Assembly: GCA_902595175.1 (NCBI GenBank) | Contig: CACJPB010000006.1 | Coordinates: 1 to 50,783, forward strand | Source of the DNA: an uncultured Prochlorococcus sp. | Lineage (GTDB): Bacteria > Cyanobacteriota > Cyanobacteriia > PCC-6307 > Cyanobiaceae | Reading direction: 5' to 3' | DNA length: 50,783 bases | Part shown: positions 17,083-34,863 of the stretch, piece by piece | Position numbering within the stretch: position 1 is the stretch's first letter | Layout: every line of letters starts with the position of its first letter | The notes under the pieces: model-generated | Told to the model about the DNA's origin: nothing | The model's database searches: none | What the model saw: only the letters and a program-made list of their open reading frames with translations | Translations under genes and position numbers: made by a program

Positions 17083-18300
17083 TCATTTACTATCTTCAAT
17101 TAATTTTAATATGGTTGGGGATATCATTTTAGTCTGATAATCTCTATTTCCAATATTTACGAAACCATTAGAATCACCAATGTTTGTGTATGAACCTTTT
17201 TTCATAGATGTAAATGATGTAAGATTTACCACGTCCTGAATGAGTTCATCATCATATTTAAATTCCAAATAATTATATATTTTTTTTATGTATAATTCTT
17301 TATTTTCAATAAGTCTTTTGTAATCAATAATTAATATGGATTTATCTTTGTTTTGTTGTATTTTCTCTGCTATTTTTATTTGATTAGTTATGAAGATAGT
17401 ATTGTTTTTTATCCAATTCAAACATGATTCATTTGGATGAATTTTGTTAAATTGATCAACTCCAAAACCTGGATCCCTTCCCCCTTTTATTTCATGGTCA
17501 AATAAGCTTAATAATGTATCAATAAGATCTCTCTTAATAAAAACTATTTTTATATTTTGTATTTCATCTTCATTTAATAATTCATCTGTCAATAAATTAG
17601 GTGATCTATCTCCACATGTTCTATAGCCAATTGATTGAAATATTTCTTTTGTCAAATTTACATTATCATTTAGGATTATATTTTTGTTGCATCCATTTTT
17701 TTGTTCTTTTCTAGCAATAAATGGTTCAAATAAAAAATCAGCATTTGTCTTTATATTCTCAATCACTCTTTTTTCGTGAAGACAAATTGTGTTGGGGTTA
17801 TTATTAACTATTGCCTCTAACAAAGTCGTACCAGATTTATGTGGGCCAGTTAATATAAAAAATGAAATATCTTCGTAATTACTTTGATATTCTTCTAAAT
17901 CTTTTTCTTTACATATGTAATCATTAATGTTGTTTTTATTTTCTTTGAAAATGCTTATCTTTTCGCCCTCATCTAAATTATTTCTTACTAATAGATCAAT
18001 ATCTAATTCATAATTTCCTGGATAATATTTACATATAGTAAGTATTTTTTTTAAATTTCTAATATTAAATTGAAGTTTAGCTTTATGTAAAAATATATGC
18101 ACATTATTCAATTGTTCAAATTTATAATCATCGCTAATTAAATCATTAACCATAAGACTAAACTCATCGATTAACTTAATTTTGATATAAGTGACACCAT
18201 CATCAATCTTAAATTTATAAAAAATACTATTTTTATTTCTATTATTATTTCTTAGACAAGTTATTCTTAAAAATTTGCCCTCTTCAGAATTTAGTTTCAT
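17083..18300 (-). CDS. Sulfotransferase with an extra N-terminal domain
   Basis: This 405-residue protein contains a PAPS-dependent sulfotransferase domain from about residue 145. The 5'-phosphosulfate loop is FFILTGPHKSGTTLLEAIVN (residues 147-166), followed by the acceptor-side CLHEKRVIENI. The 3'-phosphate site is IVFIKRDLIDTLLSLFDHE, with the family R-D-x-x-x-x-x-x-S pattern altered to RDLIDTLLS. The first 140 residues are an unrecognised beta-rich segment, which is longer than in minimal sulfotransferases. At the end of a polysaccharide cluster, sulfation of a surface glycan is the most likely role, but a small-molecule acceptor cannot be excluded. Confidence 0.8.
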   Translation of the reverse strand: MKLNSEEGKFLRITCLRNNNRNKNSIFYKFKIDDGVTYIKIKLIDEFSLMVNDLISDDYKFEQLNNVHIFLHKAKLQFNIRNLKKILTICKYYPGNYELDIDLLVRNNLDEGEKISIFKENKNNINDYICKEKDLEEYQSNYEDISFFILTGPHKSGTTLLEAIVNNNPNTICLHEKRVIENIKTNADFLFEPFIARKEQKNGCNKNIILNDNVNLTKEIFQSIGYRTCGDRSPNLLTDELLNEDEIQNIKIVFIKRDLIDTLLSLFDHEIKGGRDPGFGVDQFNKIHPNESCLNWIKNNTIFITNQIKIAEKIQQNKDKSILIIDYKRLIENKELYIKKIYNYLEFKYDDELIQDVVNLTSFTSMKKGSYTNIGDSNGFVNIGNRDYQTKMISPTILKLIEDSK

Positions 18301-18404
18301 CTTTTAAATCCTACAATAAACAGTAAAAACATATTAATTTAATTCCTTCAGGACCATTGAAAGAATACAACTAAATTATATCAGCTTTAAGAAAAATCCT
18401 AGTT

Positions 18405-18424
18405 AATGATCAAAAATGATCATT
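18405..18424. promoter_or_regulatory. Perfect inverted repeat upstream of the capsid relic
   Basis: AATGATCA and TGATCATT form a perfect 8-base inverted repeat separated by AAAA, 13 bases before the ATG of the broken capsid gene. It could be a leftover operator or a small hairpin. No T-run follows it, so it is not a convincing terminator. Confidence 0.4.
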
Positions 18425-18437
18425 TGACCAAATTTTA

Positions 18438-18860
18438 ATGCAGCCTCGGACTGTTGAAGCTTTCACATAGTGACAGACATTTGACGGTAATTCAAAGTGC
18501 TCCAGAAATTGAGCAAACTATCAGAGCTGACTTTATCTTAATCATTTTTAATGCTATTGATGCAGCAGCTTTAAATGGATCAAGCATCAGCCGATAGGCG
18601 TTTTTAACACTTCGGGCATCAACTGCGTGAAGATTGCGACTAATGGCGGGACTCCAGATTTAGACGATTTGATTGACCTTCAAAAATCTGTTTTTATATA
18701 TAATGCAGATGTTGGATCAGCAGCTTTTGTAACTAATAGCAAGGTTGAAGGAGTGCTATCAAAGCTCAAGGATAGTAATGGCTAATACTTATTAAGTCCA
18801 TATGGAAATGAGTTAGGACAGCAGCAAATCTTATCAAGAAGATTAGAGATCAGAACATAA
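18438..18860 (+). pseudogene. HK97-type phage major capsid protein, broken
   Basis: Reading three shifted segments in order gives a recognisable HK97-fold major capsid protein. From 18438 the frame reads MQPRTVEAFT, then stops. A two-base shift restores SDRHLTVIQSAPEIEQTIRA, then DAAALNGS. A second shift near 18590 restores QPIGVFNTSGINCVKIATNG, then DDLIDLQKSV, NADVGSAAFVTNSKVEGVLS, and LKDSNG followed by TAA where Gln is expected. The same frame continues YLLSPYGNELGQQQILSRRL and ends at 18858-18860. The Asn-Gly-Ser, GVxNTSGI, DDLxDLxK and TNSKVxGxLxxLKD pieces are in the right order for the family. At least three lesions show it is dead. Its codon choice is less AT-biased than the neighbours, as expected for a phage-derived gene. 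Confidence 0.8.
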
Positions 18861-18977
18861 TACTTTATGGCTAGAGGAAATGATTAAAGAGATTGAAAAG
18901 ATTGAAGATACGAATAACAATATATCTGATGCTGCTTAATCTACGATGGTTTGTGATTAATGATATTTATTGAGTAA

Positions 18978-19076
18978 TCAATTATAAATTACCAACAATA
19001 ATATTATTCCACCTATACCAAGAATTGCATGGTATGGGTCATAATGATTCTGCCAAAGCTCCTTTAAAAATTCCAT
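18978..19076 (-). CDS. 32-residue single-span membrane peptide
   Basis: An ATG frame of 32 codons reads a polar N-terminal half (MEFLKELWQNHYDPYHAI) followed by a single hydrophobic span GIGGIILLLVIYN that runs to the stop. This is the shape of the small one-helix membrane proteins common in picocyanobacteria. No Shine-Dalgarno sequence is visible, which is normal for this lineage. It lies between the capsid relic and the HAD phosphatase. Function is unknown. Confidence 0.5.
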   Translation of the reverse strand: MEFLKELWQNHYDPYHAILGIGGIILLLVIYN

Positions 19077-19080
19077 TAAT

Positions 19081-19116
19081 TTAGTCTTTGGGTCGAGTTA
19101 ATATCAAGCGTTTCAT
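19081..19116 (-). other. MKRL-type orphan gene start (11 codons)
   Basis: The - strand reads MKRLILTRPKD and stops, and its upstream bases match the start of the gene at 20520 (shared AAGCGTTTCATTTA on the + strand). I read it as a stray copy of a gene start or a very short leader just upstream of the 32-residue membrane peptide, not as a functional gene. Confidence 0.35.
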
Positions 19117-19186
19117 TTATTTGTTTTATTGGAAGAATTACCTAAGGAAAAAATATTAGAAGAATTAGCAAATTTATTAGATGGAT

Positions 19187-19864
19187 TTAAAATCCTTTAT
19201 ATAACTTTAAATAATAAATAATTTCTGATAAATCATTAATTTTTTGAATCTTTTCTTGGTTAAATTCATTTATTAATTTATTTAGTATTTCAATATCTTT
19301 TGAAAAAAACATTAAATTACATTCCGCTTTAAGTCCTGAGATAGATCCTGCATATGAGTCTTCTATAACCCATGATTTCCTTGGATCTACATCCAATATT
19401 TTTAATGCTCTCAAATAAGGATCAGGCGAAGGCTTGCCATCAGAAATGAATTTATCATCTCCAAGAACCTTTGTATTGAATAAATTTAACCAGGGATTTG
19501 CAGAGCTTTTTATTTTAAAACTTTCACTACTACTACTTGTTACTAGTGCAATAGGTAATTTTGTATTTATACAAAATTTGATTAATTCTATTGCTCCTTT
19601 AAAAGGTTTTGCTTTAGTAAGTACTTTATCTACTTTTAACTTTTGAGTAATGAGTAATTCTTCTATTGTGATTTCTTCATTTATCCATTTGAAAACTTTT
19701 TTTGCGCAATCTATTCTTCTTCTTCCTTTTAATTCTAGTAATTTATCGTTTGATAAATAGTAATTATATTCTTTTGCGGTTTCATACCAGGCATTAGCTA
19801 GTAATGGTTCTGTATCTAGTAATACCCCATCTAAATCAAAAAGAATTGCTTCTGGTAATTCCAT
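19187..19864 (-). CDS. HAD-superfamily phosphatase (beta-phosphoglucomutase-like)
   Basis: This is a 225-residue HAD subfamily IA hydrolase. Motif I is ILFDLDGVLLDTEPLLANAW (nucleophile and acid Asp), motif II is ALVTSSSSESFKIK (Ser/Thr), motif III Lys lies in DGKPSPDPYLRAL, and motif IV is SWVIEDSYAGSISG (acidic pair ED). The cap after motif I is alpha-helical, as in beta-phosphoglucomutase and sugar-phosphate phosphatases. The substrate is likely a small phosphorylated sugar, but the motifs do not decide which. It is an intact gene surrounded by relics. Confidence 0.88.
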   Translation of the reverse strand: MELPEAILFDLDGVLLDTEPLLANAWYETAKEYNYYLSNDKLLELKGRRRIDCAKKVFKWINEEITIEELLITQKLKVDKVLTKAKPFKGAIELIKFCINTKLPIALVTSSSSESFKIKSSANPWLNLFNTKVLGDDKFISDGKPSPDPYLRALKILDVDPRKSWVIEDSYAGSISGLKAECNLMFFSKDIEILNKLINEFNQEKIQKINDLSEIIYYLKLYKGF

Positions 19865-19974
19865 CTTTATAGAAATATTTTTTTATTTGCTTTTAAAATT
19901 TGGAATATCTTTTTAAAGATAGCTTATTAAAAGGAGATAATTGCCCCTTATTTTAGATCGACTGTCAAAAGTAT

Positions 19975-20007
19975 TTAATATAGCGGTGCAAGTAGTAAGC
20001 GTTTCAT
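19975..20007 (-). other. MKRL-type orphan signal-peptide start (10 codons)
   Basis: The - strand reads MKRLLLAPLY and stops. MKRLLLAP is a typical beginning of exported proteins in this lineage, so this looks like the surviving 5' tip of a lost secreted-protein gene. Its upstream bases are shared with the intact gene that starts at 20520. Confidence 0.4.
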
Positions 20008-20025
20008 TTAAAAACCACAAGTGAC

Positions 20026-20520
20026 TTAATCGCATTTTTTCTTTCGATATATTTTCTGCATTTCTTTTTGTTCTGATAAATAATCTTCTTTTGCTTGTTT
20101 ATTAATTTGATCATATTTGGCTTTAAATTTTTCTATAAGAGCTTGAGCATTTTGTCTTCTTTCTTCGGGCATAAAATCAAAATCTTCATCACTATAATTT
20201 CCACTTTTTAAGATAGTTTCAAACAAATAACATTCACTAGATAAATCAATATCAAATTCTTTTATAAAGAAATATTCATTACATAAGCTTTCTATTTCAT
20301 AAGGACTATCAAAAAGATCCTCCCATTTTGTCTCTATTGCATAAATTTTGGTAATTTGATCATAAGCAAATTCTTTGCTTTGTTTCGCAAATGATATTTT
20401 TTGCTGATAATCATTTTTTGATTTATTTATTGCAAATTTAAGGTCTTCGCATAATATTGCTTTATCGTTTCCAAAACCAAATATAAGTGGGAAAACAATA
20501 AATAAAGCTAAGCGTTTCAT
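20026..20520 (-). CDS. Secreted protein of unknown function
   Basis: This 164-residue protein starts with a signal peptide (MKRLALFIVFPLIFGFGNDK). The mature part is charged and mostly helical, with three Cys residues inside (CEDLKF, SLCNEYF, SSECYLF) and one near the end (KKKCD), so a disulfide-linked periplasmic protein is possible. No family was recognised. The ATG directly follows the stop of the gene at 20521-20751 (TAAATG), so the two are probably translated from one message. Confidence 0.6.
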   Translation of the reverse strand: MKRLALFIVFPLIFGFGNDKAILCEDLKFAINKSKNDYQQKISFAKQSKEFAYDQITKIYAIETKWEDLFDSPYEIESLCNEYFFIKEFDIDLSSECYLFETILKSGNYSDEDFDFMPEERRQNAQALIEKFKAKYDQINKQAKEDYLSEQKEMQKIYRKKKCD

Positions 20521-20751
20521 TTAATCGTTGACTTTTTGGTCTAATAATTCTTTTAATTCCTTTGGTAAGTTTAAAAAAGAATCTCTTAAATTTTCATTCT
20601 TTTTTCCTATATGCAGTATCCACTCTTTAAATTCTTCTGCTATTGCATAACTGTGTTCATATCTTTCTAGATTATCCATAACAGAAATTCTTTTAGTAGC
20701 CCAACAAGTCGCTATATCAATTCTTTTTTTTTGTTTAGTATTTACTGCCAA
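20521..20751 (-). CDS. Small protein of unknown function
   Basis: The open frame from TTG at 20751 gives 76 residues, while the first ATG at 20679 gives 52 residues (MDNLERYEHSYAIAEEFKEW onward). The ATG start is attractive because that part alone has clear helical, acidic character (NLPKELKELLDQKVND at the end). The TTG start overlaps the preceding small gene by 10 bases and would be coupled to it. No family was recognised. Confidence 0.55.
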   Translation of the reverse strand: MAVNTKQKKRIDIATCWATKRISVMDNLERYEHSYAIAEEFKEWILHIGKKNENLRDSFLNLPKELKELLDQKVND

Positions 20752-20906
20752 AATTCATCTAATGCATCAAACACTCTGTTGAGATAATCGTTTGCTCCTA
20801 TACATTCCCATTTCCCCTTTTCACCAATCGCACATTTGTAGTGCAGTTCTCTCTTGAGTTGCATTAGTTTATTGATCATAGCAACCTTGTCTAGTCTCCC
20901 GTTCAT
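20742..20906 (-). CDS. 54-residue conserved-looking small protein
   Basis: An ATG frame of 54 codons reads MNGRLDKVAMINKLMQLKRE, then a segment with two Cys residues (HYKCAIGEKGKWECIGAND), then an amphipathic end (YLNRVFDALDEFWQ). Composition, the Cys pair and the lack of low complexity argue for a real gene. It starts 3 bases inside the end of the repeat-bearing gene at 20903 and its stop overlaps the next frame. I do not know its function. Confidence 0.65.
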   Translation of the reverse strand: MNGRLDKVAMINKLMQLKRELHYKCAIGEKGKWECIGANDYLNRVFDALDEFWQ

Positions 20907-21133
20907 AGTAATTCCCTAGCTTCTGTCAATATTTGATTCTTTAAAAAAACAAGCGCGTCTAGTTTTTCCTCTTTTTCTTCATAATTTTCAAATTTCATTT
21001 CTGCAATTTCAACAATTGCTTTATCAACCTTTTTAAGCTGTTTCTTAATAACTCCCTTTTTTAGCTGTTTCTTAATAACTCCCTTTTTAAGTTGTTTTTT
21101 AATAATCATTTTTGGTATTATGGTTGATTCCAT
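20903..21133 (-). CDS. Small basic protein with a triple 9-residue repeat
   Basis: This is a 76-residue protein with a Lys-rich N-terminal half made of three copies of IKKQLKKGV (third copy ends VD), then an acidic coiled-coil-like half (VEIAEMKFENYEEKEEKLDA). The repeat is exact at DNA level in the first two units (27-base period). It overlaps the following 54-residue gene by four bases (20903-20906). No family was recognised. Slippage expansion of an amphipathic helix is a simple explanation. Confidence 0.55.
   Translation of the reverse strand: MESTIIPKMIIKKQLKKGVIKKQLKKGVIKKQLKKVDKAIVEIAEMKFENYEEKEEKLDALVFLKNQILTEARELL
21029..21109 (-). repeat. 27-base tandem repeat, three copies, in-frame
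   Basis: Three consecutive 27-base units (21029-21055, 21056-21082, 21083-21109) encode the repeated IKKQLKKGV. Units one and two differ at about one base and unit three has diverged a little more, so the duplication is fairly recent. Confidence 0.85.
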
Positions 21134-21272
21134 TGGAATTACCTTTTTTCTTTATATTCTCTTTCTTTTCTTCAAAATGCGAGTCCCTCACTTTAAATTC
21201 TGGTTAAATTATCTACATAATATCGTTAAGAATATAGTTACCGCTCTTTCAATTTAATTTAATTTAATTTAA

Positions 21273-22391
21273 TCAATCATTGGGTTTGTCATTCTTTCTG
21301 ATCAATTGGTCTAAAGTTTTTTGATCAGAGACGACAATAAAATCATCAAAATGGATAGATTGATCGGGGTATTCGATTCCAATTTGTTTTCCCGAGTGTC
21401 TATAAACACCTATTCTCACATTAGTACCAGTGTATTTTCCTTTCCAGTCAGATGTTATACCTTTGTAATCAAATATTAATTTCTTATCTTTGAAGACTTT
21501 TACAAAACCATCATCATCCTTTGTATTGTAGATTCCAATTTTATACGTGCTCCATTCACCTAATTGAGTCACACTAAATGTTTTGTTTGGTGTGAGTTTA
21601 AAATTATTTTTTATTTTTTTTTCACCTCTAGTTTTTTCATTACGCACAAACCAATTTGAATCATTTTTTTTATATTTTATATCAATGCGATGCTTAATAT
21701 TATCTTCTTTATTCCTTCTATTGAAACCAGTACCGGCAGTATTACCTGCTATTTTTAATGTTTTTCCAGTGTCATCAAAACTTATTCTTACAAGAGGATG
21801 CGTTCTCATATATACATGTCGATTTTTAAATTCAAAGAACGTTACTCTGCCATCTGTATGTTTAAAATCTTTAGGAAGTCTTGTTTTAAAACCAATCCAT
21901 ATTTCTTTATTTAAAGTGCTTCTTTGCTTTGTCTCAAATATTGCTCTTTCTGTTTCTTTTCCTGAACCTTCTTTAAGAGGATCATTATTCCATCCATGTT
22001 TCACTGTAACTTCAAGGTACTTATTGCCATCAAGATCTTTTTTAATTCTAAATGGTTTTAAACCTGCTCCCTTATCGTAGATTCGAAATATTTGGTTGAA
22101 TGATTTTTCTGTACCCCCACCAGAAGGAGAATTTGATGATGAAGGGTTAGGGTTGGCAACTTTTAATTTTCCTTCTTCTTGTTTTTCAAAGTCTTCAGAA
22201 AAATTCCAAGGAGATTTTGTTTTTTTATCTACAGAATCTGGAACAGGTACCTTTTCCCATGAGTATGAATTACCAGTGGTAAAAGACATCAATACTAGAA
22301 AAATGCATAATAATTTTTTCACAAAAAGAGAGGTTTTTATCTCTCCAATTTTATATCGACTTTCAATCACCGTAACTATTCTATTGGCCAT
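21273..22391 (-). CDS. Secreted polysaccharide-lyase-like protein
   Basis: A secreted protein that resembles the heparin-lyase-I-like polysaccharide lyase family (jelly-roll lectin-like fold). Visible pieces are YLEVTVKHGWNNDPLK, a Lys-Glu-Thr-Glu-Arg stretch, IWIGFKTRLPKDFKHTDGRV, LVRISFDDTG, LGEWSTYKIGIYN, a V-x-V-F-K-D-K-K-L strand, and VRIGVYRHSGKQIGIEYPDQ followed by HFDDF. A Ser/Pro/Gly linker follows the signal peptide (KKLLCIFLVLMSFTTGNSYS). The frame is open further upstream only from a TTG. I place the start at the ATG at 22391, though a GTG at 22322 would give a tidier signal peptide. It may cut or bind an acidic glycan. The catalytic residues cannot be assigned by eye. Confidence 0.6.
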   Translation of the reverse strand: MANRIVTVIESRYKIGEIKTSLFVKKLLCIFLVLMSFTTGNSYSWEKVPVPDSVDKKTKSPWNFSEDFEKQEEGKLKVANPNPSSSNSPSGGGTEKSFNQIFRIYDKGAGLKPFRIKKDLDGNKYLEVTVKHGWNNDPLKEGSGKETERAIFETKQRSTLNKEIWIGFKTRLPKDFKHTDGRVTFFEFKNRHVYMRTHPLVRISFDDTGKTLKIAGNTAGTGFNRRNKEDNIKHRIDIKYKKNDSNWFVRNEKTRGEKKIKNNFKLTPNKTFSVTQLGEWSTYKIGIYNTKDDDGFVKVFKDKKLIFDYKGITSDWKGKYTGTNVRIGVYRHSGKQIGIEYPDQSIHFDDFIVVSDQKTLDQLIRKNDKPND

Positions 22392-22473
22392 AACAAATAC
22401 ATTTACCCCCTTTCCAGTTTGAACATTTTTTCTTTTTGCATTTCTTTTGCTTTTTCTTTTTCTTATCAGCCAT
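22381..22473 (-). CDS. 30-residue Lys/Cys-rich peptide
   Basis: An ATG frame of 30 codons has 13 Lys and four Cys: it opens MADKKKKKQKKCKKKKCSNW and ends with a CIC segment before YGQ. The Cys pattern is C-x4-C-x7-C-x-C, which could bind a metal. The frame lies in a different phase from the lyase gene and overlaps its ATG by 11 bases. A weak hairpin (AGAGA, TCTCT) followed by T-runs comes just downstream. Function is unknown, and similar Lys-rich micro-proteins are a feature of this lineage by my recollection. Confidence 0.55.
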   Translation of the reverse strand: MADKKKKKQKKCKKKKCSNWKGGKCICYGQ

Positions 22474-22515
22474 CCCAAAAACGTTTACTAGTATTTAAAT
22501 CTTTTTTTTAATTCT

Positions 22516-23471
22516 CTAATTTTTTATGTCATAAATCCTTTCAGCATCAAAGTAAGCAATCTTTTTAGAAACTTCTTCAGGTAATTGAATTAAAATATCA
22601 CGATAAATCCTTACTATTTTTGAATATTTTTTCCAGCGGTGCTTTTTATGCGCATCAGTGGCAAATAACAATTTATCTTTATACTCGATTAAGATTTCTT
22701 TCCATTCATCTTTTACTTGCTTTTCATCATTTAAAAATCCAGGCCCAAATTTAGATTGTTTAATAGGATCAGAGATGTTTCCTTTATCTCTACTTTTTTT
22801 CGATATCGTCATATATACATTGTCATGTGTTGAAAGGATTAATTTAACCTGTTTTGGACTCCCAAAACCCATATGAGGTATTATGAATTTTTGATTTGGG
22901 AAATCAAGGAAAAGTTTAGAAAATTTAGGCCAATCTCTTTCCCAATCATAAAACTCCTAATGTGTCATAACAGGAATATTCTTTGAAGAAAACTTCACTA
23001 AAAAGTCAGTAAACCCTTTTCCTGATGGGTCTAAATATGTTTCTCCTGATTCATGCTGTCTACGATGAGTCTTATCTGCATGAGTGAATAAGATTTCTCC
23101 TACAAAAGAATATTTACTTTATCAATATTTTTCAAAGTTCGCTTTACAAATGATTTATCAATGTCATTTTCATGAAAAAAATACTTTGGTGCACCAAGCA
23201 CTATTAAGTCTTTGTTGTCTCTATGCAAATTGAGTAATGCTTTTTCATTTTCACCTAAGTATTTTCTACTTCTGGCAAAAAGAGCAATCTTATAAATTCC
23301 AGCATCTCTCACTCTAGAAATAGATTTTTCAAATCCTGGTCTTTCATCTAATTGGGCCATTGCATCAAAAAGCGGGCCGTCATAAAAATAGACTTCAAAG
23401 GTGGATAAAAGGGCAGTAAATATTCCAATTTTGAATAATTTTTTAATGTTGGAAAAAGTATTGATATACAA
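22516..23471 (-). pseudogene. Amidohydrolase-family (TIM-barrel) gene, two lesions
   Basis: Two open pieces and the DNA between them join into one protein. The 5' piece has a signal-like start, then YFYDGPLFDAMAQLDERPGF and RVRDAGIYKIALFARSRKYL. At about 23108 a one-base loss in an A-run shifts the frame. Correcting it gives YSFVGEILFTHADKTHRRQH, and then DFLVKFSSKNIPVMTH followed by TAG where Trp is expected. The frame continues EFYDWERDWPKFSKLF and IIPHMGFGSPKQV, and ends with LLFATDAHKKHRWKKYSKIV. The THAD, MTH and FATDAH parts look like metal-ligand positions of the family. The gene is inactive unless both lesions are sequence errors. Confidence 0.7.
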
Positions 23472-23476
23472 TTACT

Positions 23477-23641
23477 TTAGTATCCGAATGAAGCAAAAAA
23501 ATCATCCTCTTTATATGGAGTTGTATCAATCCATTCTGGAGGATAATCCCCAAGTTTGACGTATTGATAAAGCTTATCTAAATCTGGATCATAATAAGTG
23601 TCATTAATTCTTGGATCAGTTATTACTTTGCTTGGATGCAT
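23477..23641 (-). CDS. 54-residue acidic small protein
   Basis: An ATG frame of 54 codons reads MHPSKVITDPRINDTYYDPD and later LYQYVKLGDYPPEWIDTTPY, ending KEDDFFASFGY. It is rich in Asp, Tyr and Pro, unlike the random AT-rich frames around it, so I accept it as real. No domain was recognised. It stands alone between the amidohydrolase pseudogene and the OstA-like gene. Confidence 0.65.
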   Translation of the reverse strand: MHPSKVITDPRINDTYYDPDLDKLYQYVKLGDYPPEWIDTTPYKEDDFFASFGY

Positions 23642-23761
23642 AATAATAATTATTTCTACTCTTCCCTTATAGATTATTTAGATTAAAGCAGCTTTAAATC
23701 TCATTTAAAATTTCCTTACAAAGAAAATATATAAATTTTTTTTTCAAAAGCAAGCCTTTAT

Positions 23762-24130
23762 TTAGAATTTAATTTTTGTTGTTACTCTGTTTTTATTTTG
23801 AGATTTGAATTCAAAAAGTCCTGTATCAGTAAATATTGTCAATTCATCTCCAGATGTTTCTTGAATTGATAATCCTTCTGATTCTAAGTTTTTAATAAAT
23901 ACATTTCCAAATAGTTTTAAAGTTTTTGAATCATTATCGTAAGTAAGCTTATCTGAGAAGGCTTCAAAATCATCCTTAGTCCTTTTAATAACTACATTTC
24001 CAATAGCCTCTAAATAACCTTTTAAAGTATTTTTTTGAGAATCAGATGTAATTGTGTAATTAGTTAATTCCTCCGCAAAAGAGAATTCAGCTAATAGAAA
24101 TAAAAACGATGCAAGAAGTACTCTTTTCAT
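23762..24130 (-). CDS. OstA/LptA-like periplasmic protein
   Basis: This 122-residue protein has a signal peptide (MKRVLLASFLFLLAEFSFAE) and a single OstA-like beta domain: YLEAIGNVVIKRTKDDFEAF, SDKLTYDNDSKTLKLFGNVF. The A-x-G-x-V, A-x-S-D-x-L-x-Y and L-x-G-N-V pattern is that of the LptA/OstA N-terminal domain, which carries lipopolysaccharide across the periplasm. It is short for a full LptA (about 170-185 residues), so it may be a reduced LPS-transport protein or a relative with another lipid partner. It directly follows the cytochrome gene with no gap. Confidence 0.75.
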   Translation of the reverse strand: MKRVLLASFLFLLAEFSFAEELTNYTITSDSQKNTLKGYLEAIGNVVIKRTKDDFEAFSDKLTYDNDSKTLKLFGNVFIKNLESEGLSIQETSGDELTIFTDTGLFEFKSQNKNRVTTKIKF

Positions 24131-24484
24131 TTACTCCCAACCCTTTTCTGCATTTTGAATAATCCATTGTGCAAGAACCTTATCCTCATCATCGTTTAAT
24201 TTATTTTTATAACCTTTCATAAAACCTATCCCATCATTAGCAATTTTTGTTATTGAATTTACATCTGCTATTCCTCTTTTTTCAAGGTCGGAAAGTTTTA
24301 ATGATTTGGATCCTTTAAGAACGACTGATCCACCTTTTACATGGCAGCCTGCACAAACATTTCTAAAAATTGTTTCTCCATCTTTAATATCAGAAGCCAT
24401 TAGATATCTATTTTGCAAAAAGGTTTGAAAAATAATTATTAAAGTTATTACAGGAATTACAAATAGAAATTTAAATATTTTCAT
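24131..24484 (-). CDS. Cytochrome c6-like c-type cytochrome
   Basis: A 117-residue class I c-type cytochrome with an N-terminal hydrophobic export segment (FLFVIPVITLIIIFQTF). The haem site is NVCAGCHVKGG (C-A-G-C-H), and the likely sixth ligand is the Met in GIGFMKGYKNKLNDDE. The closing helix DKVLAQWIIQNAEKGW matches cytochrome c6. It would act as a lumenal or periplasmic electron carrier. Whether it is the main PetJ donor to photosystem I or a c6B/c6C-type variant cannot be decided here. It abuts the OstA-like gene and is 20 bases from the upstream lipoprotein. Confidence 0.85.
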   Translation of the reverse strand: MKIFKFLFVIPVITLIIIFQTFLQNRYLMASDIKDGETIFRNVCAGCHVKGGSVVLKGSKSLKLSDLEKRGIADVNSITKIANDGIGFMKGYKNKLNDDEDKVLAQWIIQNAEKGWE

Positions 24485-24504
24485 TTTATCTAGTTGACCT
24501 AAGA

Positions 24505-24906
24505 CTAATTTAACTTGTAATTAGTCTTGATTGTTTTAATTACCGATTTCTTAGGATCTTTATTTGGATAACAATTAACAATTCTATATTTACCACCTTT
24601 TCTATCTGTCTCAACGAGAGTAAATTGAACAAATTTTTCTTTTTCAACATTTGAAAAATCTTTGACTTCTATTTTGACGATTTCTTCATTATCACTTTCA
24701 ATTATTCTGGATTTACCTCCACAAAGACGAACAGCAGTTTCTTTAGTTACATAAAATAATTTTTTTTCATCAGTAATGGATGATTCACCTTTCGTGATCG
24801 AAATTTCATCTTTTGTAATGGATAAATCATCTTGGTTAATGGATAATTCATCTTTTGTACTGCAAGAAGTAAGAATAAGAATAAATACAAACAGTAGCTT
24901 TTTCAT
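24505..24906 (-). CDS. Lipoprotein with four heptapeptide repeats
   Basis: This 133-residue protein has a lipoprotein signal (MKKLLFVFILILTSC, lipobox LTSC with Cys 15). Residues 19-46 are four 7-residue units: DELSINQ, DDLSITK, DEISITK, GESSITD. The rest is a small beta-rich domain with two Cys (VRLCGGKSRIIE and YRIVNCYPNKD). No family was recognised. It is probably co-transcribed with the cytochrome and OstA-like genes. Confidence 0.65.
   Translation of the reverse strand: MKKLLFVFILILTSCSTKDELSINQDDLSITKDEISITKGESSITDEKKLFYVTKETAVRLCGGKSRIIESDNEEIVKIEVKDFSNVEKEKFVQFTLVETDRKGGKYRIVNCYPNKDPKKSVIKTIKTNYKLN
24769..24852 (-). repeat. 21-base degenerate tandem repeat, four copies
   Basis: Four in-frame 21-base units encode the seven-residue D-E-x-S-I-T-K repeats just after the lipobox of the lipoprotein. 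The units are similar but not identical, so the array is not very recent. Confidence 0.75.
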
Positions 24907-24914
24907 ATTTTTTT

Positions 24915-25067
24915 TTAAATGAGGAATTCACTTGTAATTGCTTTTAATTGTTTTTTATTTAGTTGGGTAAGATAGCTATGAATTTCATTTCTAAGTAATC
25001 TGTCTTCAACTCTTTTACTTTCAAGAATTGAAAATGTAATGAAGTTAATAAGTTGATTTTTGTTCAT
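24915..25067 (-). CDS. 50-residue small protein
   Basis: An ATG frame of 50 codons reads MNKNQLINFITFSILESKRV, then EDRLLRNEIHSYLTQLNKKQ, ending LKAITSEFLI. The heptad-like spacing of Leu/Ile and the charge balance suggest a helical hairpin, not random sequence. No family was recognised. It lies just upstream of the lipoprotein gene and might lead that transcript. Confidence 0.55.
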   Translation of the reverse strand: MNKNQLINFITFSILESKRVEDRLLRNEIHSYLTQLNKKQLKAITSEFLI

Positions 25068-25281
25068 TTTTATCTTTTAGGTCTCTATTGTTAAATTTTA
25101 ATTAAATTCTTATTAAATAAACTTTTGACTATTAGAAAAAATATTTTATTTAAAAATTTAGAAATTTTTTAAACAAATTTATTTTTTACTTAATAACTTC
25201 TTAATCCAATTATTTTATTTAAATTGTCTTCTATATTTCTACGCCTTGAATATTGAAGACAATCATATAAAAAAATAATAA

Positions 25282-25536
25282 ATGATTATAAAAAATTCAC
25301 CTTCTCCCAAAAACTCAAATCAAGCCCAAGAAATAGGGCATATCAAATATTCTTATAAAGAAAGTTTTAAAAGAGAAAATAAATCTATTTTGGATGATTC
25401 GGAATTTATTGAAAATTACAATAACGCCCTTAAATCACCACAATCAAGAAGATTGTATAAAGATACAGAGAATGAAATTCATTTGGACTCAATTGAGGCC
25501 CAAAATATTTTACCTCTAGATAAAATTTCTATTTAA
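25282..25536 (+). CDS. 84-residue hydrophilic protein
   Basis: This protein of 84 residues is rich in Ser, Asn, Glu and Lys, with no hydrophobic segment (MIIKNSPSPKNSNQAQEIGH onward). It is probably disordered at the N-terminus. I do not recognise it. It is transcribed away from the - strand genes to its left. About 214 bases of AT-rich DNA separate it from them, with no obvious element inside. Confidence 0.5.
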   Translation: MIIKNSPSPKNSNQAQEIGHIKYSYKESFKRENKSILDDSEFIENYNNALKSPQSRRLYKDTENEIHLDSIEAQNILPLDKISI

Positions 25537-25645
25537 AATTTTATTTAAAACTACTTTTAAAGATTTTTTAAATATATCTTAAATCCGACCTTCTTTTTTA
25601 ATGTTAGCTTACTTCTACGTTCATCCAATTTATTTGGACGCATGA

Positions 25646-25673
25646 AATGAGAATAGGGAACGGGATTCTCATT
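25646..25673 (+). ncRNA. Candidate structured RNA or leader hairpin
   Basis: AATGAGAAT and ATTCTCATT form a perfect 9-base stem around the loop AGGGAACGGG, unusually G-rich for this DNA. The hairpin ends 14 bases before a small gene and follows a 14-codon frame (MLAYFYVHPIYLDA, 25601-25645). It lacks a T-run on the + strand, so a leader element or small RNA is more likely than a terminator. I cannot assign a known RNA family. Confidence 0.35.
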
Positions 25674-25687
25674 AACTGCATAAGATC

Positions 25688-25858
25688 ATGAATGAGCTCT
25701 CTCAAATAAGAGAAAAAATTACAAGAGCCAAGAGGCTTTATGAAGCCCAAATCTTGGCAACTAAAAATGGAGAAGTTACTCCATATAGAAGATCAGTCTT
25801 TGAAGAAAGAATTAGGGAAGCACAAAAAGAAATGAGATCGCAAGACACCAAAAAATAA
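25688..25858 (+). CDS. 56-residue helical small protein
   Basis: An ATG frame of 56 codons reads MNELSQIREKITRAKRLYEA, QILATKNGEVTPYRRSVFEE and RIREAQKEMRSQDTKK. It is strongly helical and charged, with a heptad-like pattern suggesting a short coiled coil. The amino-acid content is clearly protein-like and less AT-driven than neighbouring frames. No family was recognised. Confidence 0.65.
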   Translation: MNELSQIREKITRAKRLYEAQILATKNGEVTPYRRSVFEERIREAQKEMRSQDTKK

Positions 25859-25874
25859 ATTCTTTTGTAAAAAT

Positions 25875-26123
25875 CTATTTTGTATCAGCTACATTCTTGA
25901 AGAAATCACAGTAAGCCATTAATTCTGATTCGGTTTCAATTTTTAGATTTAAATCATTAATTGCTTTCTTGGTATCAATTCTGTAGCCATACCAATCTAA
26001 ACAAACTTCTCTCTGCCTTTGGGTTTCAGAAACCTTTTGAGTACCTATTTTGTTTGAGTTACTAGTACAACTCGCAAGGAAAATAGTTGAGAGAGCTAGT
26101 AGTGGGAATAATAGTATTTTCAT
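25875..26123 (-). CDS. Small lipoprotein
   Basis: This 82-residue protein has a lipoprotein signal (MKILLFPLLALSTIFLASC, lipobox LASC). The mature part has two more Cys (REVCLDWYGYRIDTKKAIND and MAYCDFFKNVADTK), which could pair in the periplasm. No family was recognised. It starts 3 bases after the DUF3764 gene and is likely translated with it. Confidence 0.65.
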   Translation of the reverse strand: MKILLFPLLALSTIFLASCTSNSNKIGTQKVSETQRQREVCLDWYGYRIDTKKAINDLNLKIETESELMAYCDFFKNVADTK

Positions 26124-26126
26124 TTG

Positions 26127-26432
26127 TTAATCACAACAACTTTCCGTTGTTACTGAAGAAGTCCAAGATGATTCTTCCATTGTTGAAAGGTCAACTCTAT
26201 GCGTTGCCATCCAGTCACCATTAGCTTCTAAAAACTTTTGAATATTACCTTCTGGAGCTTGATGAATAACAATAACTTTTTGAGGATCTTTCTTACTTAC
26301 TCCTCTAAAAAGTGGCTTAATATAAAATTCTGAATGCCTTTTATCTGCCTCTGCACTATCAAATATTGCTGCCCATTCATCGAAAGTGCTTTCAATTTTA
26401 AAAGTAAAAACAGATGTTATAGAACAAGACAT
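26127..26432 (-). CDS. DUF3764 family protein
   Basis: This 101-residue protein fits DUF3764, a small family known mainly from marine picocyanobacteria. The diagnostic core is FDEWAAIFDSAEADKRHSEF followed by IKPLFRGVSKKDPQKVIVIH and FLEANGDWMATHRVD. The fold is probably an alpha-beta dimeric barrel. Its biological role is unknown. The C-terminal SCCD is unusual. It precedes the small lipoprotein by 3 bases. Confidence 0.75.
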   Translation of the reverse strand: MSCSITSVFTFKIESTFDEWAAIFDSAEADKRHSEFYIKPLFRGVSKKDPQKVIVIHQAPEGNIQKFLEANGDWMATHRVDLSTMEESSWTSSVTTESCCD

Positions 26433-26483
26433 AATAAAATATTATTTGTAGCCATAAAATAAGTCTGTTTAATTAAGGTTTGG

Positions 26484-27020
26484 TTAATTATCTTTAAACG
26501 GAATTAAAATACCTTTTTTTTCAAATTTGAGCCAACCTTTTTTTTCTAGTATTTTTAAATTTCTAGTTACGGTTACTCTTGTTGAAGAAATTGAATTACC
26601 GATAATTTTATGGGTAAAATTAAATTCTTTTAAATTTAGATAAATATGTTTATCTTTTTTTAAGCCAATAATTGAAGATAAGTATAAAAGAAATTCTTTT
26701 AGTTTTTCTTCTGATTTTTTTATATGACTTATTAATAAAAGTTTTTCCAATTGATCAATTCTTTTTAGACTTTTTGTTAATAAGTCTGTAGATGAAAAAA
26801 ATAGCCCTCTTTTAATTGTTTTAATTTCGCAATTTGTCAACGCAATTAATTTAATATTTTCGTAGTTACATGTTTCCAAATTTATTACAACATTTTCATT
26901 TATTATCCCAACAATATGTTTCTTATTCTTGATTTTTGATTCCATTATTAATATTCCTGATTTGACTTCTAGTATTGTATTTTCTTTAAATTCTATATTT
27001 TGCTTTTCAGGAATTATCAT
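26484..27020 (-). CDS. Crp/Fnr-family transcription regulator
   Basis: This 178-residue regulator has a reduced N-terminal cupin-like effector region (KENTILEVKSGILIMESKIK, NENVVINLETCNYENIKLIA) and a C-terminal winged helix. The recognition part reads FTHKIIGNSISSTRVTVTRN, followed by LKILEKKGWLKFEKKGI. It is shorter than standard Crp (about 210-230), and the cyclic-nucleotide phosphate cassette is not visible, so it may sense something else or act without a ligand. It is divergent from phnD with about 190 bases between the two starts, making the phn operon a plausible target. Confidence 0.8.
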   Translation of the reverse strand: MIIPEKQNIEFKENTILEVKSGILIMESKIKNKKHIVGIINENVVINLETCNYENIKLIALTNCEIKTIKRGLFFSSTDLLTKSLKRIDQLEKLLLISHIKKSEEKLKEFLLYLSSIIGLKKDKHIYLNLKEFNFTHKIIGNSISSTRVTVTRNLKILEKKGWLKFEKKGILIPFKDN

Positions 27021-27211
27021 ATTTATTTCTTAAATGCTTTCACCCTAAATTTGTAAAGTTAAAAATAAATTAAAAATTATTTAATTCCCTAATAAATCTG
27101 ATTAAAAATTGACTTACTCAAAATAAAACAATTAATCAGAATTTAAACTCTTTTTGGGAAAAAGTTAACCTCTTTAGAGCAAGTTAAATATGGAGAATAA
27201 ATTCAACACTA

Positions 27212-28210
27212 ATGAAAAATTTATTAAAGATAGTCTTAGGGCTATCAATAATCAGTACAAGTATTTCAAGCTGCGGAAATAAATCAAATGATTTAATTGG
27301 AGATTTAGATTTATCTGATTGCAATCCAAATAATACTGTTGACAGCCAATATTGTGATCGAGATGGAGATTTTCTCGCAGATCTACCCCTTTCCGAAGAT
27401 GAATGGATAGATCCTGAAACCATTGTGTTCTCATATACACCTGTTGAAGACCCCTCCGTTTATGCAAAAGTTTGGGAAGATTTTGTAATACATATGTCTA
27501 AGGTGACTGGTAAAAAAGTCACTTTCTTACCAGTTCAATCTTATGCTGCTCAAGTTGAGGCAATGAGATCTGGACGTCTTCATGTAGCAGGAATTAATAC
27601 TGGAAGCAATACAGTGGCAGCAGCATGTGCAGGAGCAGTTCCATTTGGAATGATGGCTAAAAAAGATTTATCTTACGGTTATGAAATGGAAATTATTGTT
27701 CCTTCTGATAGTCCAATTAATTCCCCTGCAGATTTAAAAGGTAAAAAAGTTACATTTACATCTAAGACATCTAATTCAGGATTTAAAGCACCATCGGCCA
27801 TTCTCAAAGGAGAATTTGGTCTTGAGGCAAATAAAGATTTCACCCCAGTCTTTTCTGGCAAGCATCAAAATTCAATAATGGGTGTTGCAAACAAAGATTA
27901 TGAAGTAGCACCAATTGCTAACTCAGTTCTTACAAGAATGGATGCAAGAGGTGTTGTTGATTCTTCTAAAATAAAAACTATTTATAAATCCCAAACCTTC
28001 CCAACGACAGGTTATGCTCATGCTCATAATCTACATCCAGCTGTAGTTGCAAAAGTAAAGCAAGCTTTTTACACCTATAACTGGGATAATTCAACATTAG
28101 ATAAAGAATTTAAAAAGGCTGATAGATTCATTTCAATAAGTCACAAGCACGATTGGGATGTTATTAGAAAAATAGATAAGGCTAATGGTGTTGTTTATGA
28201 TTGCAAATAA
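27212..28210 (+). CDS. phnD: Phosphonate/phosphite ABC transporter substrate-binding protein
   Basis: This 332-residue periplasmic binding lipoprotein has the lipobox SISSC around residue 21. It has the PhnD-like order: FSYTPVEDPSVYAKVWEDFV, FLPVQSYAAQVEAMRSGRLH, VAGINTGSNTVAAACAGAVP, SPADLKGKKVTFTSKTSNSG, FSGKHQNSIMGVANKDYEVA and SQTFPTTGYAHAHNLHP. The family binds phosphonates or phosphite. Picocyanobacterial homologues have been linked to methylphosphonate or phosphite, but the ligand here is not read from sequence. An acidic Asp-rich insert (DLDLSDCNPNNTVDSQYCDR) follows the lipobox. It is the first gene of phnDCEE. Confidence 0.92.
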   Translation: MKNLLKIVLGLSIISTSISSCGNKSNDLIGDLDLSDCNPNNTVDSQYCDRDGDFLADLPLSEDEWIDPETIVFSYTPVEDPSVYAKVWEDFVIHMSKVTGKKVTFLPVQSYAAQVEAMRSGRLHVAGINTGSNTVAAACAGAVPFGMMAKKDLSYGYEMEIIVPSDSPINSPADLKGKKVTFTSKTSNSGFKAPSAILKGEFGLEANKDFTPVFSGKHQNSIMGVANKDYEVAPIANSVLTRMDARGVVDSSKIKTIYKSQTFPTTGYAHAHNLHPAVVAKVKQAFYTYNWDNSTLDKEFKKADRFISISHKHDWDVIRKIDKANGVVYDCK

Positions 28211-28241
28211 AAATTTTTAATCATAAATAAAATCAGACTTA

Positions 28242-29009
28242 ATGCTTAAAACAATAAACCTCAAAAAGGTTTATCCAAATGGAGAAGAGGCTCTTAAAGG
28301 AATAAACCTAGAAATTCCTAATGGGCAAGTAGTTGCTCTTATCGGTCCTTCAGGTGCTGGTAAAAGTACTTTTATTAGAACAATAAATAGATTAGTTGAG
28401 CCCACTTCAGGGAAAGTTTATTTCGCTAATGAAAAAAATGACATTACTTCTTTAAATAAATCTAAATTAAGAAAAATAAGAAGACAAATTGGAATGATTT
28501 TCCAGGAATTTGCTTTGGTAGAAAGATTAAGTGTAATGGAAAATGTCCTTTCCGGCAGATTAGGCTACGTAGGATTTTGGAATAGTTTTTTCAGAAAATT
28601 TCCTCAAAAAGATATCGAAGAAGCATTCCGGTTGCTTCAAAGAATTGGACTAGAGCATATGCTTGATAAAAGAGCCGATGAATTATCAGGAGGTCAGAGG
28701 CAAAGAGTAGGAATTGCTAGAGCTTTGATACAAAACCCAATGTTACTTTTAGTAGATGAACCTACAGCTAGTTTAGATCCAAAAAATTCTAGACAAATTA
28801 TGCGATTAATATGTGAGTTATGTAAGGAAAGAGATCTTGCTGCGATTATAAATATTCATGATGTTTATCTTGCTCAGAATTTTGCAGAAAGAATAATAGG
28901 TTTAAAAGCTGGAAAAATTGTTTACGATGGCAAGCCAAGTGGCTTATCAGAGACAATACTTACAAAAATATATGGAGAAGAAGACTGGTCTAAAACTGTA
29001 GCAAATTAG
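28242..29009 (+). CDS. phnC: Phosphonate/phosphite ABC transporter ATPase
   Basis: This 255-residue ABC ATPase powers phn uptake. Walker A is [17 protein letters not shown], the Q-loop is [20 protein letters not shown], the signature is [15 protein letters not shown], Walker B is [13 protein letters not shown], and the switch His is in INIHDVYLA. The insertion with [20 protein letters not shown] is typical of PhnC. It lies 31 bases after phnD and 11 bases before the first permease. Confidence 0.95.
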
Positions 29010-29020
29010 GAATATATTAA

Positions 29021-29818
29021 ATGAATGATAAGAAAGTAATTTGGAAAAGAAAACCGTTAATAAAAAATAGGTTATTAAGAATTGGATTAATTTTGCTAAT
29101 TAGTACTTACTTATTATCTGTTTTCCTAACTACCGAAATTGATTGGCAAAGAATTCTTGAAGGGATCCCAAGGGGTAAAAATTTTATATTTGCTTTTTTC
29201 CCTCCAGATTTTATAACTAGATCTGATGAGATTTTGGCAGGTATTTTTGAAAGTCTATGGATGACTATTGTTGCAACTATTGTGGGGATACTTATTTCTA
29301 TACCTGTATCCTTAGGGGCGGCTAAAAACATAGCTCCTAAATTTGTTTATTTCTTATCAAGAGGAGTTATCACATTGTCGAGGAGTTTTCAGGAAGTTAT
29401 CCTAGCAATATTTTTTGTTAAGTTAATGGGTTTTGGACCTTTTGCTGGGATGGTAACTCTGAGTTTATCGACAATAGGGTTTTTCGCTAAATTATTATCT
29501 GAAGATATTGAAGACATAAATAAATCCCAAGCTGAAGCAATCAAATCTACTGGCAGCAATTGGTTTCAATGGGTTAATTATGGTGTCCAGCCTCAAGTTA
29601 TGCCAAGATTTATTGGATTATCTTTATACAGATTGGATATTAATTTTAGAGAGTCAGCGGTAATTGGAATTGTTGGGGGAGGAGGTATTGGTTCTACCTT
29701 AAATACAGCTTTTGATAGATATGAATTTGAGACTGCAGCGGCTGTTCTTATCGTAATTATTTCTATCGTGATGATTGTTGAATATACATCTAGTCATCTC
29801 AGGAAATTAATAAAGTAA
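29021..29818 (+). CDS. phnE: Phosphonate/phosphite ABC transporter permease 1
   Basis: This 265-residue permease has about six membrane spans. The PhnE-type coupling loop reads GMVTLSLSTIGFFAKLLSED followed by INKSQAEAIKSTGSNWFQW, and the C-terminal part has NFRESAVIGIVGGGGIGSTL. An N-terminal basic segment (KVIWKRKPLIKNR) precedes the first span. Its stop TAA overlaps the ATG of the second permease by one base, consistent with strictly coupled translation of a heterodimer. Confidence 0.94.
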   Translation: MNDKKVIWKRKPLIKNRLLRIGLILLISTYLLSVFLTTEIDWQRILEGIPRGKNFIFAFFPPDFITRSDEILAGIFESLWMTIVATIVGILISIPVSLGAAKNIAPKFVYFLSRGVITLSRSFQEVILAIFFVKLMGFGPFAGMVTLSLSTIGFFAKLLSEDIEDINKSQAEAIKSTGSNWFQWVNYGVQPQVMPRFIGLSLYRLDINFRESAVIGIVGGGGIGSTLNTAFDRYEFETAAAVLIVIISIVMIVEYTSSHLRKLIK

Positions 29819-30633
29819 TGCCAATAATAAAACAAAAGGATTACAAAACCTGGAAAAAATTTGATCGAAAAAGAGATTTACAAAACTGGCTTTGTTGGTT
29901 CTTAGGTACTTTAATTTTTAGCTTTTGTTTCGGTCTGATTAGTAGTAAAACAATCTGGTTTTATGTTTTTGATTCACATAATGAGGCTTTAGATCTTTTA
30001 GGTAGGATGTTTCCTCCAGAAACTAATTATTTCTTAACTTTAATAAAACCTATTTGGGATACTTTAAATATCGCGACTATTGGTACAACGATTGGAACTT
30101 TAATTGCAATACCATTAGCTTTTTTATCCGCAAACAATACTACCCCAAGTAAAAAGTTTATAAGACCTTTAGCCTTATTTTGCATAGTTTCAAGCAGATC
30201 AATTAATTCAGTAATCTGGGCATTACTTCTGGTTGCAGTTGTCGGTCCGGGAGTCTTGGCTGGCATAATTGCTATCGGATTAAGATCGATTGGATTTTGT
30301 GGAAAATTACTTTATGAAGCTATAGAGGAAATTGATGAAAACCAAATTGAAGCTATTGAGGCAACAGGGGCAAATAAAGCACAAATTATGACCTTTGGCA
30401 TAGTGCCTCAAATTCTCCCAGCATTTACGAGTATTTCTATTTATAGGTGGGATATAAATATAAGAGAAGCAACTGTTGTTGGCTTAGTTGGAGCAGGAGG
30501 TATAGGGATAGAATTAGATGCTCAAATAGGAGACTTAGCTTGGGCTAAGGTATCAGTTATTTTATTAGCAATAGTAGTGGCAGTAGTTTTTAGTGAATGG
30601 ATTACAGCAAAAATAAGAAAGGCTATTATTTAG
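29818..30633 (+). CDS. phnE: Phosphonate/phosphite ABC transporter permease 2
   Basis: This second PhnE-like permease of 271 residues is paralogous to the one just before it. The coupling loop reads IAIGLRSIGFCGKLLYEAIE followed by IDENQIEAIEATGANKAQIM, and the C-terminal signature is DINIREATVVGLVGAGGIGI. Two different permeases in one operon suggest a heterodimeric channel, as in several phnDCE1E2 operons. It is the last gene of the operon. A degenerate stretch follows. Confidence 0.93.
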   Translation: MPIIKQKDYKTWKKFDRKRDLQNWLCWFLGTLIFSFCFGLISSKTIWFYVFDSHNEALDLLGRMFPPETNYFLTLIKPIWDTLNIATIGTTIGTLIAIPLAFLSANNTTPSKKFIRPLALFCIVSSRSINSVIWALLLVAVVGPGVLAGIIAIGLRSIGFCGKLLYEAIEEIDENQIEAIEATGANKAQIMTFGIVPQILPAFTSISIYRWDINIREATVVGLVGAGGIGIELDAQIGDLAWAKVSVILLAIVVAVVFSEWITAKIRKAII

Positions 30634-30674
30634 ACTAAATTAAATACTAGTATGAATATTTGATTAAAAAAATT

Positions 30675-30839
30675 TTAAATGCAATTTTCTGATAGATATC
30701 TAAGTATTTGGGTTTTCTTAGCAATGTGTATTGGATCTTTATCAAGATCAAATAAAAAATCAAAAAACCTTCTTTTATGAAAGTAAAAGTGCCATTCTGC
30801 ACTATCAGGAACAGTGCCTTTTTCTCCATCAATAACCAT
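30675..30839 (-). CDS. 54-residue small protein, antisense to a possible acr3 relic
   Basis: The - strand has an ATG frame of 54 codons, with an in-frame stop just before it, reading MVIDGEKGTVPDSAEWHFYF, HKRRFFDFLFDLDKDPIHIA and KKTQILRYLSENCI. It has balanced composition and looks like a real picocyanobacterial small gene. Its last third lies antisense to a + strand peptide that resembles the start of an arsenite permease, so one of the two readings must be accidental or one may be built on the relic of the other. Confidence 0.5.
   Translation of the reverse strand: MVIDGEKGTVPDSAEWHFYFHKRRFFDFLFDLDKDPIHIAKKTQILRYLSENCI
30679..30780 (+). pseudogene. Possible 5' relic of an ACR3-type arsenite permease
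   Basis: The + strand reads MQFSDRYLSIWVFLAMCIGS and then loses similarity before a stop at 30778. ERYLSLWVFL-type starts with a following A-M-x-x-G segment are characteristic of ACR3 arsenite efflux proteins, which picocyanobacteria often keep near phosphorus genes. Only about 20 residues match by my recollection, and the opposite strand carries a competing 54-codon frame, so this is tentative. Confidence 0.35.
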
Positions 30840-30916
30840 TTATGGAGTTTTGGCCTTGTCTGCGTATTTGTTAGTTCTGTTGCTCATGTCGTAACTGTAA
30901 TTTTGAGAAACAGACA

Positions 30917-31057
30917 ATGATTATTTATAAGTACCTCATGCTCAAAAGCAAGGATCAACCCGTACACTTTCTATGTCTTGCTAATAAGATAGACCGATTT
31001 TATTTAACTTGCAATAGCAAATACCCTACAAATACAGAACAAATTAATTTGCACTAG
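30917..31057 (+). CDS. 46-residue ORF of uncertain reality
   Basis: An ATG frame of 46 codons reads MIIYKYLMLKSKDQPVHFLC and LANKIDRFYLTCNSKYPTNT before EQINLH. It has a non-random look (two Cys, mixed charges) and sits in the otherwise empty stretch between phnE and the tRNA. No family was recognised and no ribosome-binding site is visible. It could be a fragment of a lost gene. Confidence 0.3.
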   Translation: MIIYKYLMLKSKDQPVHFLCLANKIDRFYLTCNSKYPTNTEQINLH

Positions 31058-31108
31058 ATTTTGCACTAATCGTATTAAATTATAATCCTCAAATCCCTGA
31101 AAACCTAA

Positions 31109-31181: not shown

Positions 31182-31246
31182 ATTACTTCAAATATACCAA
31201 TTCACACCTTGATATTTATATTTTCAAGATATGAATTTACCTAAAA

Positions 31247-34801: not shown

Positions 34802-34863
34802 TTTTTGGGTAAGAACCGTACGGTACTTGGATTAATATAAATTATTAAAATTAATTATTAAAA

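Follow-up and report, generated by a model that had tools for sequence, protein, structure and literature searches.

By sequence comparison, positions 18420-18844 on the forward strand of the window, the 50,783-nucleotide stretch of DNA from an uncultured Prochlorococcus sp. that was analysed, are a 425-base internal fragment of an HK97-type protease-capsid fusion gene. We consider it likely, at a probability of roughly 0.83, that this relic is a remnant of a major capsid gene once carried by a small integrative satellite of marine picocyanobacteria. Its identity of about 60% to the capsids of intact elements, its place in the capsid tree and the rearrangement junction at which it ends argue for a satellite relic at a scar and not for a prophage relic. 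Prophages are regarded as almost absent from Prochlorococcus. Together with its intact relatives, the relic shows that capsid-carrying integrative elements exist in this genus. The pieces of the relic and its closest neighbor in the surface-glycan island to the left are the following:

17083-18300, reverse strand: sulfotransferase-domain gene, the closest island gene left of the relic
18420-18467, forward strand: capsid relic, first piece, SFDQILMQPRTVEAFT
18469-18584 (right limit approximate), forward strand: capsid relic, second piece, in another frame, SDRHLTVIQSAPEIEQTIRA..., 25.8 bits
18585-18844, forward strand: capsid relic, third piece, QPIGVFNTSG...SRR, with one in-frame stop, ending exactly at the junction, 107.8 bits

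The relic covers approximately codons 324-467 of the 546-codon intact gene. Two frameshifts and one in-frame stop make it an incomplete, non-functional gene and, therefore, a pseudogene; two adjacent stops that follow PRTVEAFT are out of frame. At the left edge, a short inverted repeat was seen at 18405-18424, with two 8-base arms and a 4-base loop. The five peptides named in the original prediction were all found on the forward strand, in the order claimed and in two different frames. The span it gave, 18438-18860, had to be shifted: homology runs from approximately 18420 to 18844 and its final 16 bases (18845-18860) are part of a small host gene, an assignment borne out in all 16 fetched relatives.

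The joined relic peptide, with X at the breaks, matched the capsid family PF05065 with an E value of 4e-12 (46.5 bits, above the curated cut-off of 24.2) and the major head protein family phrog_617 at 5.3e-16. The longest single piece alone fell under the PF05065 cut-off (1.9e-4, 21.4 bits), and the shorter piece alone had no match in Pfam or PHROG. When the relic's own genome (65.6% complete, 38 contigs) was read through stops, PF05065 exceeded the same cut-off at the relic (2.5e-7, 29.2 bits), which was the sole match in that genome. A profile made from 11 intact relatives with the relic left out (HMM A1) scored 107.8 bits over model positions 379-468 and 25.8 bits over 341-378, in adjacent and collinear matches. 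A chance match was rejected since 60 dinucleotide shuffles of the window reached a top score of only -1.1 with this profile. The joined-peptide searches and the shuffle control, therefore, support the earlier identification of an HK97-type major capsid relic.

PF05065 matched in 13 of 200 Prochlorococcus genomes, the relic's own included, which leaves intact copies in 12 of the 199 others. A search with the relic peptide found 14 capsid genes, intact or contig-cut, in 12 other genomes at 42-61% identity, and the relic was 59-61% identical to the capsids of the AG-388-F11 and AG-402-N10 elements. Scanning GTDB-species genomes yielded 24 loci: 22 were in Prochlorococcus or Synechococcus (L092-L113), including MIT 9302, AG-388-F11, and AG-402-N10, and the other two, in an Ignavibacteriales MAG and Microcystis, were weak. 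The relic itself was found in no other of 266 genomes of the genus. Could the gene be a domesticated capsid-like host gene of the encapsulin or gene-transfer-agent type? The gene transfer agent capsid Rcc01687 is indeed a weak match to the profile (6tba, 6tb9; 1.1e-7). The top match among solved structures, however, is to 8gta (1.4e-45), annotated as a major capsid protein, and the gene has a patchy distribution: it occurs in 12 of the 199 other genomes, in the vicinity of integrases and tRNA repeats. We consider such an origin highly improbable.

Two side observations were made in these searches. The relic peptide also weakly matched an open frame of 447-463 aa (L029-L039) in 11 further genomes, at E values of 1e-4 to 1e-3 and 31-35% identity, none of them a PF05065 match. 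Also, two capsid-bearing elements were present per genome in AG-402-N10 (L093/L094, approximately 14 kb apart) and AG-388-A01 (L101, approximately 7 kb apart).

Another possible source of the relic is an ordinary temperate tailed phage, that is, a prophage of the S-CBS/S-LBS type. The capsid family is indeed shared with such phages, and 81 phage records in INPHARED match the relic, every one below 60% identity. Identity was at most 38% among the best 20 of the 81, the top ones reaching 37-38% across three quarters of the relic. The Synechococcus phages S-CBS1, S-CBS3, and S-LBS1 match at 1e-8 to 1e-10, but with 31-33% identity (31% over 96% of the relic for the S-CBS3 capsid), compared to approximately 60% for the elements.

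Tree placement was examined with 55 capsid rows over the relic's columns; 38 of 80 IMG/VR loci were offered to it, and the capsid of Achromobacter phage Mano was removed by the length filter. The relic fell into a clade of 25 rows (support 100/98) with all 22 picocyanobacterial loci and the IMG/VR contig L116, while the remaining 27 IMG/VR rows stood outside, as did S-CBS1, S-CBS3, and S-LBS1. Within this satellite clade, it belonged to a 7-row subclade (92/98) with AG-388-F11, AG-402-N10 (both copies), AG-355-N18, AG-410-A05, and L116. Its terminal branch is long (0.45), and its exact sister was not resolved by the tree. The original prediction had mentioned capsid-bearing satellites and integrated elements as one option, and both the 59-61% identity to element capsids and the 100/98 clade favor it.

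Of the 34 columns without variation among the intact sequences, the relic kept 29. Against four intact genes, its pS was 0.63-0.74 and its pN 0.25-0.30, compared to a pN of 0.08-0.22 between intact pairs. We read this as divergence that probably built up mostly under selection, with a relaxed phase later; the timing is rough because synonymous sites are near saturation.

The intact relatives show what kind of element carries this gene. Their capsid protein is a fusion of a prohead protease (PF04586) and a capsid (PF05065), as found in the one protein scanned, and this layout is common to the 11 aligned intact proteins. Around the gene lie a tyrosine integrase, AlpA/excisionase-like genes, an AAA_25 ATPase that resembles replication helicases (AAA/RepA-like), and small genes, and an NAD-ligase adenylation domain is often nearby. 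The integrase matched PF00589 under the Pfam cut-off and the phrog_1 integrase at 1.9e-14. With tblastn, the integrase family was found in 15 of the 22 loci L092-L113 and the ATPase families likewise in 15, several of the loci being cut by contig ends. In the MIT 9302 and AG-347-B23 loci, a 618-aa gene takes the place of the tyrosine integrase, near tRNA-Ser(TGA); we read it as a putative large serine recombinase, and it had no NCBIfam match.

Stretches of approximately 8.2-8.8 kb in L043, L053, and L054 are flanked by 46-56-base copies of tRNA-Pro(TGG) or by the tRNA gene. These three loci, thus, combine integration at a tRNA gene with a recombinase, as tycheposons do, and no tRNA repeat was found in L049 (MIT 9302). 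L116 has 8725 bases with a 99-base terminal repeat, suggesting that it is probably a circle of approximately 8.6 kb. It carries the ATPase, the protease-capsid fusion, and an integrase-like gene (31% identity) that had no PHROGs match. Approximately 100 bases from the latter are 23 bases of tRNA-Pro, which we read as an attachment sequence. Separately, an ALKSPQSRR-like motif is common to an island small gene of the window (25282-25533) and a 41-53 aa ORF that immediately precedes the satellite capsid gene in L043, L050, L100, and other loci. Scanning 2.42 Mb of fetched DNA, in part overlapping, with a regular expression for it returned 17 distinct peptides, all of those two kinds.

The portal and TerL families PF04860 and PF03354 matched in none of 13 genomes, namely the 12 with intact capsid genes and the relic's own, G000 (65.6% complete); among 14 controls, the two families matched in 4 and 3, respectively. 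Portal and TerL queries taken from related phage contigs found nothing in 36 element loci (L092-L113, L116, and 13 overlapping re-fetches), all 36 of which were found by the capsid query. Portal and TerL queries matched 70 and 42, respectively, of the 79 best IMG/VR relatives (L117-L195). Of three related IMG/VR phage contigs scanned, all had a PHROG terminase match and only L191 a PHROG portal match; the candidate portal gene of L117 had none. The absence of portal and terminase refers to the tested families and queries. With that scope, the neighbors expected for an intact copy were found in part: the integrase is there, and terminase and portal were not detected. The portal homologues in 70 of the 79 related IMG/VR loci fit a tailed-phage origin, but the identities, the tree position, and the lack of a portal or TerL family match in G000 disfavor an ordinary prophage, which we regard as unlikely.

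Further traces of satellites were found elsewhere in the same genome. Contig C10 (L217, 5161-8253) carries an integrase of the satellite type (92% to the copy in G023), an AlpA-like gene, and two partial tRNA-Pro copies, and this locus is without a capsid gene. The 3.7-kb contig C27 (L218, 1-3708) has a satellite ATPase, 62% identical to that of the second AG-402-N10 element, and two adjacent small genes. After these, a DUF4011/helicase protein begins, with similarity to anti-phage proteins (PADLOC PDC-S37 at 3.3e-61; the NCBIfam matches ProA and Hhe were far under their cut-offs). The C10 integrase and AlpA-like gene, together with the C27 ATPase, indicate that the satellite family has been in this lineage before. 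This genome may also hold a variant that carries defence-like cargo in place of the capsid gene.

The satellite relic ends at a junction with a block that relatives carry elsewhere. The features on this side are the following:

18845-18937, forward strand: small host gene, truncated by 58 bases at its start, where the junction lies; all 16 fetched relatives have it intact
18845-30743, no single strand: displaced island block with a HAD hydrolase, small genes, and the phnD-C-E phosphonate transporter, found within an island beside tRNA-Thr(GGT) in G047 and G110
30679-30743, forward strand: 5' part (first 22 codons) of an ACR3 arsenite-transporter gene, truncated where the block ends on the right
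31108-31182, reverse strand: tRNA-Ala(GGC), the start of the neighboring conserved genes

Nineteen relatives have a match of 275-346 bases at 93-99% that starts at 18845 or 18847. Sixteen of them were fetched; all match from this point, none has the relic, and the break falls inside the small gene. Six of the 16 fetched stretches extend to 30.6-30.7 kb with internal gaps, and the others differ or stop short of this, where the contig or the fetched stretch ends. On the right, similarity stops at 30743 in five relatives, in G047 within the ACR3 arsenite-transporter gene. In G047, a 39-base tRNA-Thr copy and the tRNA gene enclose approximately 18 kb. The tRNA-Thr site of the relic's own genome (G000:C5:46900-50000, L252) is without the block, and its flank leads to tRNA-Thr, tRNA-Tyr, and core genes. 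In the window, the 11.9 kb block sits between the glycan island with the relic and tRNA-Ala(GGC), and both of its ends are cut inside genes. This junction with the displaced tRNA-Thr block is a concrete breakpoint of island exchange. The left-hand sulfotransferase stretch had only short matches in relatives, and the spacers 18301-18419 and 30744-31107 had no relatives among the fetched loci.

With tblastn, the neighborhood of the relic yielded no convincing integrase, AlpA-like gene, or AAA ATPase; the short shared ALKSPQSRR-like motif accounts for weak matches near 25.4 kb. Pieces of tRNA-Pro or tRNA-Ser of at least 14 bases were searched for in the window, and the only match was one of 14 bases at 34857, to sequence downstream of tRNA-Ser. 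There was, thus, no tRNA-Pro copy of at least 14 bases in the window and no attachment-site remnant beside the relic. For tRNA-Ala, tRNA-Thr, and tRNA-Tyr, pieces of at least 12 bases were limited to the intact tRNA-Ala gene and a 12-base tRNA-Tyr match at 9554. An insertion site shared with the AG-388-A01 double element had been suggested by shared small genes; this idea was dropped because that island is near tRNA-Pro and the shared genes are scattered. These data change two parts of the original prediction. The small-gene strip in which it placed the relic is, on the right-hand side, a displaced piece of the tRNA-Thr island. Past integration at this place was not borne out, since there is no attachment-site remnant beside the relic and the adjoining block is displaced.

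The relic borders directly on a block whose place in relatives is a different tRNA island, so transport to this site or a rearrangement may account for its position. A fragment of satellite DNA could have come along with the glycan island or the moved block through transduction or recombination, without ever having been integrated here by its own integrase. The missing attachment remnant, the junction inside a small gene, and the displacement of the adjacent block are all consistent with this. Nothing stands directly against it, and we give it slightly less than an even chance. It is a variant of the satellite explanation that concerns the arrival of the relic and not its identity.

Another explanation to be weighed is a sequencing chimaera that joined unrelated DNA at 18844/18845. 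Single-cell amplification is known to make chimaeras, and this genome probably has a single-cell origin. Also, the relic and its junction are unique among the 266 genomes, so both relic junctions rest on one assembly. However, a chimaera would not yield a degenerate capsid gene, and there is a second, independent breakpoint at 30743 in the 50.8-kb contig, while the usual site of the block is empty on C5. A chimaera is, therefore, quite unlikely.

For the satellite that we favor as the source, the following course is proposed. Intact elements of approximately 8-9 kb would integrate through a tyrosine integrase at tRNA-Pro(TGG); two genomes have a form with a putative large serine recombinase near tRNA-Ser(TGA). 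They would excise, replicate, and be packed in a shell of their own capsid protein, with the portal, packaging motor, and tail presumably supplied by a helper phage. This own-shell, helper-borrowing life cycle is suggested by the genes present in and absent from the elements and by analogy to cf-PICIs, which have the whole head set. In the lineage of the window, one satellite capsid gene would have been inactivated, and a rearrangement would then have left the 425-base fragment between the glycan island and the truncated tRNA-Thr island block.

How Prochlorococcus islands move is an open question. A broader proposal is that picocyanobacteria carry minimal own-shell satellites (8-9 kb, with only the protease-capsid fusion), that their debris lies at island breakpoints, and that satellite traffic helps to shape surface-glycan islands. 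We offer this tentatively and think it rather doubtful as a whole. An intact element is present in the named strain MIT 9302 (L106), in which the proposed helper-dependent packaging could be tested.

The elements can be compared to several known systems. The Synechococcus siphophages S-CBS1, S-CBS3, and S-LBS1 have capsids of the same superfamily as the relic, but at 31-33% identity and in a separate clade, and the S-CBS3 and S-LBS1 stretches carry an annotated portal gene. VEIMEs are marine virion-encapsidated integrative elements recovered from virus fractions. L116 is known from a viral-contig collection, which does not imply an origin in virions. Hackl and colleagues are said to have described, in 2023, the tycheposons of Prochlorococcus as integrative elements at tRNA sites with tyrosine recombinases. 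The intact elements share tRNA-site integration in Prochlorococcus and tyrosine recombinases with these; however, carriage of a capsid is the main feature here, and capsid-bearing tycheposons are not evident in the portions of the descriptions compared.

Tycheposons are named as proposed marine satellites (PMC10803314, PMC11389934), those of Prochlorococcus are linked to seven tRNA genes (PMC10872708), and VEIMEs are named as well (PMC10803314). Like the elements here, cf-PICIs are integrative satellites that supply a capsid protein and a head protease themselves (PMC10690885, PMC10803314), but they also encode a portal, connectors, and both terminase subunits (PMC10690885), none of which was detected in the elements. 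The MulchRoom and MiniFlayer satellites of Streptomyces phages also have their own capsid gene; unlike the elements, they also code for a terminase and a portal, and their genomes are linear and bear terminal repeats (PMC10690885). A literature search, which covered texts in part and had the primary tycheposon and VEIME papers outside its reach, found no prior description of these elements. The kind of element is probably known, as tycheposons. What is new here is the relic itself, together with its assignment and the scar.
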